Source: Thermodesulfobacteriota bacterium
Lineage (GTDB): Bacteria > Desulfobacterota_D > UBA1144
DNA: 44,148 nt
Direction of reading: 5' to 3'
NCBI GenBank assembly: GCA_030835345.1
Contig: JAURPH010000007.1
Span: 77,542-121,689, forward strand
Under the pieces are notes generated by a model, which was not told the DNA's origin, did not search any database, and saw nothing but the letters and a program-made list of their open reading frames with translations. Made by a program: the position numbers and the translations under genes. Below are positions 2,551 through 4,895 of the stretch, in pieces. Positions within the stretch are counted from its first letter, which is position 1. Each line of letters starts with the position of its first letter.

Positions 2551-2985
2551 ATGAAAAGTTTTAAAACAGTTTGTATATCTTTCATCTTGTTGTTGACAAT
2601 AACAAGTTGTAGTCCAAAAATTTCTTGTGATTCTTCTGATGCTTTAGATGTAATCGATATGTTGATTATAGATAATGTAATAAATAATGATTATGAGTTT
2701 GGTTTTAGGTTCGGTGAGGCTGTAGGGCTACCCCTACTAACTGATGAAAAATATTCAGGATATTTAGATGGAAGTATTCCAATTCCAACACCAGAATGGA
2801 AAATTGATAATATAAGGGTTTTAGCAAACAATAAAAATACAAATTCTTATTCTTGTGCGGCTGAACTTTATTATGAATGGGATGATAATATAGTTAACAA
2901 TTTAAGATTGGTTAAATACATTTCGTACAGAGTTGATGAAACCACAGATGGGAATGTTTACATATCAAATTTTAAAGGATTTTAA
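2551..2985 (+). CDS. Unknown lipoprotein, 144 aa
   Basis: I do not recognise this family. The N-terminus (Lys3, then a hydrophobic run, then LTITSC) is a lipoprotein signal with the lipid-attachment Cys at residue 20, so the mature protein should be membrane-anchored outside the cytoplasm. The remainder is acidic, with many Asp, Asn and Tyr residues and no motif I can name. The next gene starts 2 bp after its stop, so the two are probably co-expressed and may work together. Confidence 0.75.
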   Translation: MKSFKTVCISFILLLTITSCSPKISCDSSDALDVIDMLIIDNVINNDYEFGFRFGEAVGLPLLTDEKYSGYLDGSIPIPTPEWKIDNIRVLANNKNTNSYSCAAELYYEWDDNIVNNLRLVKYISYRVDETTDGNVYISNFKGF

Positions 2986-2987
2986 TA

Positions 2988-3368
2988 ATGTCTTTTGACT
3001 GGAAAACATTAAGTCTAAACAAACAAATAATTTTAGGCTCTTTCGGAATATCTCTTTTTTCTTTGTTCTTACCTTGGGTTGATATACAGCTTATAACTCT
3101 TAATGGATTTCAACAACAGGGATATCTTTTTTTGATTTGTTTTATATATCCACTTTACTGTATTTTATCTGCAAAGAAGCACAATGCTTTAGTCTCCCTT
3201 GCTTTAGGTGTCTTGACTGTTATTTTAACAATTTGGTTTATTAACTCAAAAAGTGTTGAAATTTATGAAGGTGAAAGTGTTAATGTATCTGGGTCTGGTC
3301 TATGGCTTTTTGCACTATGTACTTTCGCTTTTACCTTTTCTTGTTTCAAAGAATTAAATGAAGATTAA
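2988..3368 (+). CDS. Unknown small integral membrane protein, four helices
   Basis: 126 residues with four likely membrane segments (about 13-33, 45-61, 66-86 and 103-120) and short charged loops. The loop between the third and fourth segments (residues 87-102) is acidic. No family recognised. It starts 2 bp after the lipoprotein gene, implying a two-gene unit downstream of nrdAB. Confidence 0.7.
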   Translation: MSFDWKTLSLNKQIILGSFGISLFSLFLPWVDIQLITLNGFQQQGYLFLICFIYPLYCILSAKKHNALVSLALGVLTVILTIWFINSKSVEIYEGESVNVSGSGLWLFALCTFAFTFSCFKELNED

Positions 3369-3402: not shown

Positions 3403-3594
3403 TTAATCGCCTTCAATTTGAATTGAGTTTTCTTCTTTCATTAATATTGGCCTACCATCAGGAGTACTTAGTGGAATAATTTTGTTACCATTTTTAACAC
3501 AGAGAGTTGGATTATTATGTTTTTCTTTACCCAAGTTAACTTCAATATCAGCAATCACTAAATCAACATTTTTTAAAATTTCTAGAATTTTCAT
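3403..3594 (-). CDS. Unknown 63-aa protein coupled to the nitroreductase-like gene
   Basis: A small soluble protein with alternating hydrophobic and polar residues suggesting a small beta-rich fold (for example KNGNKIIPLSTPDGRPIL). It has no signal peptide or membrane segment, and one Cys (residue 32). Its ATG overlaps the stop of the upstream 434-residue gene by 4 bp, which argues that it is a real, translationally coupled gene and perhaps a partner subunit. I know no family for it. Confidence 0.6.
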   Translation of the reverse strand: MKILEILKNVDLVIADIEVNLGKEKHNNPTLCVKNGNKIIPLSTPDGRPILMKEENSIQIEGD

Positions 3595-4895
3595 TTTTTA
3601 AATGGATCCTCCATTTCAGGGTGCCAGAGAGCAAAATGATTTTTATGGTTCTCAGTGTATGAGCCTTCAGGATAGAAGTGATCATAAAAATCTAAATCAA
3701 TATGATGATTTTGCACCATCATTCTACAATACATTGCATCTGAAAAAGCAGGAAACCTGCCATAGGTCTCATACAGATAAGTACAAATATCTTTAACAAT
3801 TTCGATTTCTTTTTTTGATGGTCTAGGAGTATCTTTAAGTACACCTGTTGGGTCCTTGTACGGCATAAATTTTTCTTCCCAGTTTGACCATTTCATATCA
3901 TTAAAAGCTTCAACGGCTTCACCCATATTTGAATAATAGGGTGGCGAAAAAGCCTCGAATAATCCGTCTAAACCAATTGGTGCTTTAGACACTGCTTCTC
4001 CCCAATCTTCTTTTGACTCAACACATGTGAAACCTAGTCCTTTATATTCTTTGTCTGCACCTAGCATATAACGGCTTTGGAAACCACTAAACATCCATCC
4101 ACCAATTCCAAGAATTTGTTGGGTGAGGGCAACATTTTGACAAAACATAGGCTGTTCAGCTATGTATCCGTTAGCAAACCTTAATTCGGCTTCTATTAAA
4201 GGAATCGGATTGCTAATATCTATATAACCGTCATCAATCCATTTTTGTGTTCCTGCGGGTTTCATCTTTTTCAACTCGTCAACGAAATGGAATCTGTGAC
4301 CATCTCTCATATAAAAAAATAAAATATTTATTAGTCCTGCGCTTAAATCAGTTACTGGCATCATCAGCGTTGTTCCAGGTTTGTTTACACTCCATGTATT
4401 GTGTATTGCTAGACCAGGCGGTACTTTAGGTAAATCTGCCCTTCCATCATGTATTTTTATTCTAGATTCTTTAAAGAGTTCTATTATTTTTTCTATTTTC
4501 TTTTCTTTTGAAAGCCCTTCAATACCTTTTAAATCTGAAGGCAATTGATCATGAAGCTTTACTAAGTAGAGCCCTTCATCGTTTGTATAAAATAATTCAG
4601 TACGATGAATGTCTCCTAGAGAAGCAATTGTTTTGCTCATGAATTTAACTTCAAGATCTAATCCTTTATGTGGTGGAAAATCTGAAAGATTTATATTTTT
4701 AATTCCAAGACCATTCCATACAAGTATTGCTTCTTCAATTTCACTCAATGGAATCGGCTTATGTTTAGATTTGAATTTAAGCGGCCCTTCATCAATCTCG
4801 CCACCCATTGCAAACCTTCTGGACCTTCTTTCATATAAAGCATCTAAAAAAGAATGATCAGTGGCATTTTTAACACCTGGGGGTAATTTTGACAT
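3591..4895 (-). CDS. Uncharacterised nitroreductase-like protein, 434 aa
   Basis: The N-terminus resembles FMN-binding nitroreductase-fold proteins: an ERRSRRF run near residue 22, then IPLSEIEEAILVWNGLGI around residues 48-66, and a central QNVALTQQILGIGGW segment resembling the family's second conserved helix. It is about twice the length of a simple nitroreductase. The C-terminus holds a His- and aromatic-rich stretch (NHHIDLDFYDHFY from residue 396, further His at 417, 420 and 425) that I cannot assign. There is no signal peptide, so it is probably cytoplasmic. It is divergent from pyrE and coupled to the 63-aa gene. It could be a flavin oxidoreductase or a nitroreductase-derived modification enzyme; substrate unknown. 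Confidence 0.6.
   Translation of the reverse strand: MSKLPPGVKNATDHSFLDALYERRSRRFAMGGEIDEGPLKFKSKHKPIPLSEIEEAILVWNGLGIKNINLSDFPPHKGLDLEVKFMSKTIASLGDIHRTELFYTNDEGLYLVKLHDQLPSDLKGIEGLSKEKKIEKIIELFKESRIKIHDGRADLPKVPPGLAIHNTWSVNKPGTTLMMPVTDLSAGLINILFFYMRDGHRFHFVDELKKMKPAGTQKWIDDGYIDISNPIPLIEAELRFANGYIAEQPMFCQNVALTQQILGIGGWMFSGFQSRYMLGADKEYKGLGFTCVESKEDWGEAVSKAPIGLDGLFEAFSPPYYSNMGEAVEAFNDMKWSNWEEKFMPYKDPTGVLKDTPRPSKKEIEIVKDICTYLYETYGRFPAFSDAMYCRMMVQNHHIDLDFYDHFYPEGSYTENHKNHFALWHPEMEDPFKK

Follow-up and report, generated by a model that had tools for sequence, protein, structure and literature searches.

A predicted nitroreductase-fold family with a conserved histidine-rich tail that lies outside the Pfam and NCBIfam models

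On the minus strand of the 44,148-nucleotide stretch of bacterial DNA analysed here (the window), a gene for a 434-residue protein is followed by one for a 63-residue protein, and the pair raises the question of what kind of enzyme the large protein is and whether the small one works with it. The positions of both genes and of the segments discussed below are collected in Table 1. The two frames overlap by four nucleotides, ATGA, which hold the stop of the large gene and the start of the small one, just as an earlier sequence-only reading of this DNA had claimed. The genome is 0.97 Mb in size (15 contigs) and retains the 434-residue family; its class is called Dadabacteria here, a name inferred from the bin labels of related records. 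The divergent 178-residue neighbour is presumably orotate phosphoribosyltransferase-like. Beyond the small gene, window positions 2551-3368 hold two uncharacterised frames, one of 144 residues with a lipoprotein-like start and a hydrophobic one of 126 residues, lying between the 63-residue gene and a gene that we take to be nrdB-like. Relatives of one or both of these frames adjoin the gene at other loci in the same two genera that carry the small gene.

Table 1. Features of the locus, in positions of the window
Feature	Position	Strand	Basis
434-residue protein of subfamily A, predicted nitroreductase fold	3591-4895	minus	open reading frame, homologues, predicted structure, alignments
63-residue gene, lineage-specific, under purifying selection	3403-3594	minus	open reading frame, homologue search, dN/dS
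Codons 23-29, RRSRRFA, with invariant R23, R24 and R27	4809-4829	minus	95 of 95 sequences
Codons 87-105, SKTIASLGDIHRTELFYTN, loop matching the SagB-type PSaGarhp-E-Y segment	4581-4637	minus	hhalign
Codons 247-267, E247 to W267, EQPMFCQNVALTQQILGIGGW	4095-4157	minus	forced hhalign; E247 in 95 of 95 sequences
Codons 397-425, HHIDLDFYDHFYPEGSYTENHKNHFALWH, conserved His/Asp/Tyr/Trp tail, candidate metal or acid-base site	3621-3707	minus	alignments
Divergent neighbour, 178 residues	4940-5476	plus	homologue at most 50 nt away at 13 of 13 loci examined in the window's family

Family recognition and predicted fold

Searches of Pfam and NCBIfam with the window protein returned no nitroreductase match at E-values up to 1, and the PPR and trehalase matches that they did return were at chance level. 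The nitroreductase model PF00881 matched one of 28 relatives (E 0.24). Although PF00881 nitroreductases would share the same fold, the best score among eight family members from outside Dadabacteria was below threshold, at 17.1 bits against a gathering cut-off of 23.5, and the whole window genome (G000) gave no match to this model. PDB sequences yielded no match to the window protein at E-values up to 1, and the family profile drew three rows from them that are no better than chance (E 1 to 1.6). We found no paper in the open-licence literature whose title or abstract treats the family. The family falls outside the Pfam and NCBIfam models.

To gain structural information we used AlphaFold2 with an alignment of 28 sequences from 51 loci (duplicates among the 51). 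The resulting model had a mean pLDDT of 80 and a pTM of 0.84, with residues 64-94 below pLDDT 50. In a Foldseek comparison with the PDB, ranks 1-5 were all nitroreductases, the best at E 2.1e-3, with no match at E <0.001; viral structures gave nothing at E <2.7. VIA-align placed the FMN nitroreductase BT_0217 of Bacteroides first (8cqs; Z 11.7, rmsd 3.0 over 176 residues), followed by BF3017 from the same genus (3hoi; Z 11.5), a Ralstonia nitroreductase, BmdC and ThcOx, and its first seven rows (Z 11.7 to 10.0) consisted of FMN nitroreductases and BmdC/ThcOx-type oxidases. The solved chains of BT_0217 and BF3017 comprise about 190 residues and are 14-17% identical to the window protein over the aligned part. 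The nitroreductase fold proposed from sequence is thus almost certain on the strength of the model, and long extra parts are supported too; those of the 434 residues that lie beyond the structurally matched core are insertion and tail. An internal duplication was considered and rejected, the N-terminal and C-terminal halves matching only at P 2.5 in a profile comparison.

Profile-profile comparison had been named as a check in the sequence-only reading. Of the profiles tried with hhalign, the best match to the family was a set of 19 SagB-type proteins picked with TIGR03605 (P 93.8, E 1.8e-7), in a confident alignment that is local, covering 67 columns and residues 11-104 of the window protein. 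The 15 members from outside Dadabacteria reached P 92.7 on their own, while 40 column-shuffled profiles reached at most P 0.9 and 14 families of neighbouring genes at most P 1.1. Ordinary nitroreductase profiles built from 11 and 16 sequences did not match the family (P 7.3 and 3.4). SagB locus L193 and nitroreductase loci L172 and L176, which yielded no usable frame, and nitroreductase locus L173 were left out of the profile sets. These results indicate, but do not prove, that the nearest branch is the SagB/ThcOx type rather than the ordinary nitroreductases, because the sets of nitroreductases were mixed and of small size, and because the SagB-type profile itself found them (P 97.7 and 89.6). 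With SagB/ThcOx-type enzymes (TIGR03605; ThcOx 5lq4, BmdC 7ly4, McbC 6gos) the family has in common the predicted nitroreductase fold, the RRS-x-R start and a PS-x-G-x-x-x-x-E-Y-like loop; it differs from them in its long insertions and its histidine-rich tail.

Its nearest profile, and some of its nearest folds, would suit a SagB-type azoline dehydrogenase acting in the modification of ribosomal peptides, a role close to one that had been raised for this protein. We regard this as very improbable, and for Dadabacteria as largely refuted. TIGR03605 (cut-off 78.4 bits) did not match the window protein at E-values up to 1 or three distant members at E-values up to 0.001. The YcaO cyclodehydratase was found in none of 60 genomes by a search that was positive in five of 14 control genomes. 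In SagB-type enzymes a [KR]Y motif before GH..QN is catalytic. Of the 17 SagB segments obtained (two of the 19 proteins gave none), 16 contain it, mostly as RY, with KY alone in two of the 19. By eye, [KR]Y is absent before E247, where the segment from E247 to W267 pairs with SagB-type GHvcQNlyLaaeai at low confidence and in a forced alignment only (-mact 0.01). It is the absence of YcaO from the 60 genomes and the missing motif that make peptide modification unlikely.

Conserved residues and the histidine-rich tail

Conservation was assessed in 95 sequences: 19 of subfamily C, 21 of B, 14 of A1 (the window protein included), 26 of A2 and 15 from outside Dadabacteria. A split Phyllobacterium gene (L152), partial archaeal sequences (L144-L146), contig-end fragments and a divergent 351-residue copy were omitted. 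Eight residues, R23, R24, R27, N166, N171, E247, Q395 and Y404, are invariant in all 95. In AlbA, R24 and R28 bind the FMN phosphate according to PMC11055893, and the matching spacing of R23 and R27 suggests that these are putative FMN-phosphate arginines. By this analogy, FMN is quite probably the cofactor.

The six tail histidines had been placed at residues 397, 398, 406, 417, 420 and 425, and all six positions are correct. The hypergeometric probability that six or more of the protein's 15 histidines fall within its last 38 residues, a stretch chosen post hoc, is 0.0008. Directly after the last core element, the alignments show the pattern Q-x-H-H-x-D-x-x-F-Y-D ... Y-x3-H-x2-H-x3-W-H. H417 is present in 93 of the 95 sequences, and position 400 is aspartate in 92 and glutamate in the other three. 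Among the 76 sequences outside subfamily C, H420 and W424 are found in every one, H397 and H425 in 74 each, and H398 in 73, with the residue undetermined in one more. Across subfamilies A and B and the 15 outside relatives, five tail histidines are thus under strong conservation, together with D400, Y404, D405 and W424. The exception is H406, which is variable even within the closest group (seven of 14), so that the idea of a histidine-rich site stands for five of the six histidines and fails for the sixth. In the 19 sequences of subfamily C the tail is eroded, with H397 in one, H420 in five, H425 in 12 and W424 in none, and still H417 and D400 are kept in all 19 and H398 in 16.

Since the tail persists across Dadabacteria, haloarchaea and rhizobia and is partly dismantled in one paralogue, it resembles a functional site. 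Judged by this pattern of conservation, the tail rather probably lies at the active site; that it binds a metal is a more doubtful proposition, to which we give somewhat less than even weight. The tail would then form a metal or acid-base site of an FMN-dependent oxidoreductase.

Distribution, paralogues and the 63-residue gene

The family was found in 56 of the 60 genomes searched (its own included). All 56 belong to the window's class, from which 57 genomes were searched; the three genomes from other groups gave no family match. By our count, 53 of the 57 have a close copy of the subfamily A type, and most genomes contain two or three paralogues. Among the best 80 of 167 relatives, records 92-99% identical to the window protein come from bins called 'bacterium' or 'uncultured bacterium' and from one labelled Candidatus Hydrogenedens, records at 80-82% include the bins Candidatus Dadabacteria UBA1144 and Deltaproteobacteria TMED58, and many at 62-66% are labelled Candidatus Dadabacteria. 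More distant relatives, 27-32% identical and spanning 90-97% of the protein, are carried by 19 plasmid records, with Haladaptatus, Rhizobium, Rhodobacter, Phyllobacterium and Nonomuraea as hosts; in the annotated plasmid records that we opened they are named 'hypothetical protein', and two further records have no feature there. None of 16 pattern matches on viral contigs was a relative, and none was found in phages searched with the Haladaptatus member.

Two further bins with relatives are labelled Desulfovirgula (G060) and Ferroglobus (G061), labels that are possibly wrong because both are bins. Matches were found in nine of the 196 genomes of the phylum around G061, which is counted among the nine, and in one of the 149 of the phylum around G060, namely G060 itself; the phylum of G057 held one genome only. 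A quick tree of 95 sequences gave support of 100 for B (21 rows), 100 for C (19 rows) and 95 for A (40 rows). Of the G060 copies, one falls on the A side of this tree and the other on that of B and C, which suggests that the paralogues arose before the class did, in a tree whose program flags long branches, the G060 rows among them.

Several variant copies were encountered. Beside a full copy in G060 lies a diverged one of 351 residues (L132:83-1138), 26% identical to the window protein and ending before the tail, which could be a non-catalytic subunit. A 49-residue frame (L033:7025-7174) duplicates the family's tail and nothing else; a full copy, itself 46% identical to the window protein, lies about 1.1 kb upstream of it. 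The annotation divides the Phyllobacterium member between two genes (L152:8235-9351). The members from Rhizobium SL42 (L148:7869-9263) and Rhodobacter CZR27 (L149:7857-9239) begin, by eye, with twin-arginine-like starts, none of which was seen in the remaining aligned rows. A start of this kind fits export of a folded cofactor protein.

The multiplicity of paralogues also bears on whether the protein could be an F420-linked enzyme, either a stand-alone dehydro-F420 reductase resembling FbiE or an F420-dependent oxidoreductase. F420 genes are reported from Dadabacteria, and FbiE is described as a nitroreductase-superfamily protein, in PMC8498797. As circumstantial evidence, the window genome encodes a CofD-like protein that scores 243.8 bits with TIGR01819, just below the cut-off of 257.45, and 39.3 bits with the YvcK model; PF01933 is present in 56 of the 60 genomes, and the lack of a PF00881 match in G000 would fit too. 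However, ordinary PF00881 proteins also occur in 36 of 40 relatives, and both the several paralogues per genome and the Tat-like signals of the alphaproteobacterial members are a misfit for a biosynthetic step, so that we consider an F420 role improbable.

The 63-residue frame behaves as a real gene under purifying selection. The dN/dS ratio of the window gene was 0.064 against L004, 0.086 against L006, 0.091 against L008 and 0.085 against L005, the four window comparisons with unsaturated dS, in all of which dS is high (synonymous differences of 0.57-0.70 per site). The gene is also narrowly distributed, and the conservation anticipated for it held only in part: at E <1e-20 it was found in six of the 60 genomes (its own included), which belong to two genera within the window's family, and G013 is without it though it belongs to the same genus as G011. 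The overlap with the large gene is retained in five of the six. In the remaining genome, G011, the homologue (L005:2808-2993, minus) is inverted and convergent with the large gene, and is preceded by AAAGGAGA, its own ribosome-binding-like site. The single-sequence model of the protein consists mostly of strands (pLDDT 80.6 for the best of five, 55.3 for the worst), with no fold match in the PDB at E <3.4. Weak extra search matches were discarded, as they fall in different reading frames that are mostly long; one whose DNA we inspected reads, as far as we can judge, as dehydrogenase-like.

A start/stop overlap retained in five of six genomes and a small gene under purifying selection would be expected of a two-component enzyme resembling AlbAB, with the 63-residue protein as obligate partner at the flavin site, and AlbA- and AlbB-type genes often overlap, as described in PMC11055893. 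AlbAB (8uc3) has the nitroreductase fold, at Z 8.8 against the 434-residue model, and an overlapping small neighbour gene, as does part of the window's family. Yet the small partner accompanies AlbA generally, whereas the 63-residue gene is present in six of 60 genomes against 56 of 60 for the large gene; it is inverted in G011; and AlbB is described in that paper as a helix bundle, in contrast to the mostly stranded model obtained here. The CDOB partner of cyclodipeptide oxidase is assigned there to PF19585; the 63-residue protein has no Pfam match. The passages on AlbA seen in PMC11055893 describe no histidine-rich tail like that of the 434-residue protein. An AlbAB-like arrangement is consequently slightly less probable still than an F420 role. 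The small protein had been put forward as a likely partner, and because it occurs in six of 60 genomes and is inverted in one, besides being missing from G013, it is no general partner and is at most a local accessory.

Gene neighbourhoods and proposed function

Genes were counted within 5 kb of family members. At the window's own locus we recognised no pathway and no CoA-related neighbour. At the 26 other A loci, a gene that we take to be D-2-hydroxyacid-dehydrogenase-like lies downstream in 11, and a protein of about 78 residues with the motif MGVWDS or MGIWDA (for example L087:8813-9049) is encoded near 17; outside the window's family it thus recurs, and within that family it was found in none of 14 genomes. 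It is related to a protein encoded just downstream of the A-like copy of G060 (L134:1283-1591; P 97.4, E 1.2e-11), and the L087 protein has no Pfam match. It was also tried, and rejected, as a relative of the 63-residue protein (P 0.1).

B copies have a Fur-type regulator upstream at 15 of 21 loci. Near the 19 C copies we observed a rhodanese-type gene at 10, a SufU-type gene at nine and SufE at three, and at 10 of the 19 a pyridine-nucleotide reductase and a NapH-like Fe-S membrane protein are encoded downstream. On a single strand, L047:2338-8886 carries rhodanese-type, SufE, SufU, nitroreductase-fold C, pyridine-nucleotide reductase and NapH-like Fe-S membrane genes, a run that is possibly a sulfur or electron-transfer operon.

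Both G060 copies share a region of about 18 kb with genes for a TRAP permease, a thiolase, a ChsH2-type OB protein and MaoC and with acyl-CoA ligase, HpaB-type and hydantoinase-type genes. The acyl-CoA ligase of G060 and those of three of the 19 Dadabacterial C loci constitute one subgroup, with 48-65% identity between loci (80% between two sister loci) as against 21-29% to other ligases. With the ligases encoded close to the C copies of the window genome, G006 and L119, the G060 enzyme shares 48-54% identity, compared with 23-29% for the remaining ligases in the set. An HpaB-type gene is near two of the 19 C copies, and at 14 of the 19 C loci a ligase is lacking from the surrounding 5 kb. Because acyl-CoA ligase, MaoC, thiolase and HpaB-type genes are linked to the family, CoA-activated organic acids are tentatively favoured as substrates, a suggestion that we make with little confidence and for which these linkages are the sole pointer; the Tat-like starts of the two alphaproteobacterial members argue against a CoA substrate there.

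The rhodanese-type and SufU-type genes beside C, together with the failure of ordinary nitroreductase profiles to match, would also be consistent with a protein that has abandoned flavin redox chemistry, in which the fold serves as a scaffold and the tail has turned it into a metal-binding or metal/sulfur-handling protein. This seems to us unlikely. The putative FMN-phosphate arginines are kept in 95 of 95 sequences, C is the subfamily with the Fe-S neighbours and yet the one with the eroded tail, and the reductase and Fe-S membrane protein encoded after C at 10 of 19 loci fit electron delivery. A broader proposal, rather speculative but less improbable than a scaffold, is that the family represents a bacterial-archaeal class of flavin-plus-metal enzymes with the nitroreductase fold, in which the HH-x-D ... 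H-x2-H-x3-WH tail would put a metal at the flavin site and in which, among Dadabacteria, paralogue C has lost that site and been recruited to a reductase/NapH-like chain beside sulfur-transfer genes.

The reading that we prefer, and that we consider reasonably probable, is that of an FMN-dependent oxidoreductase from an unmodelled nitroreductase-fold family nearest to SagB/ThcOx, with its tail capping the active site. Such an enzyme would most likely act as a homodimer and bind FMN between its subunits, the FMN phosphate held by R23, R24 and R27, and hydride or electrons would move between the flavin and a small substrate. The C-terminal tail would cap the active site, where it may either coordinate a divalent metal or contribute acid/base groups.

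With this analysis a nameless gene, nearly universal in its class and kept in a genome of 0.97 Mb, gains a predicted fold and residues that can be tested, and Pfam and NCBIfam prove to have no model for a branch of this well-studied fold that bacteria and archaea share. Should a metal indeed be held by the tail next to the flavin, this would be a kind of chemistry for which we know of no precedent among nitroreductase-fold enzymes.
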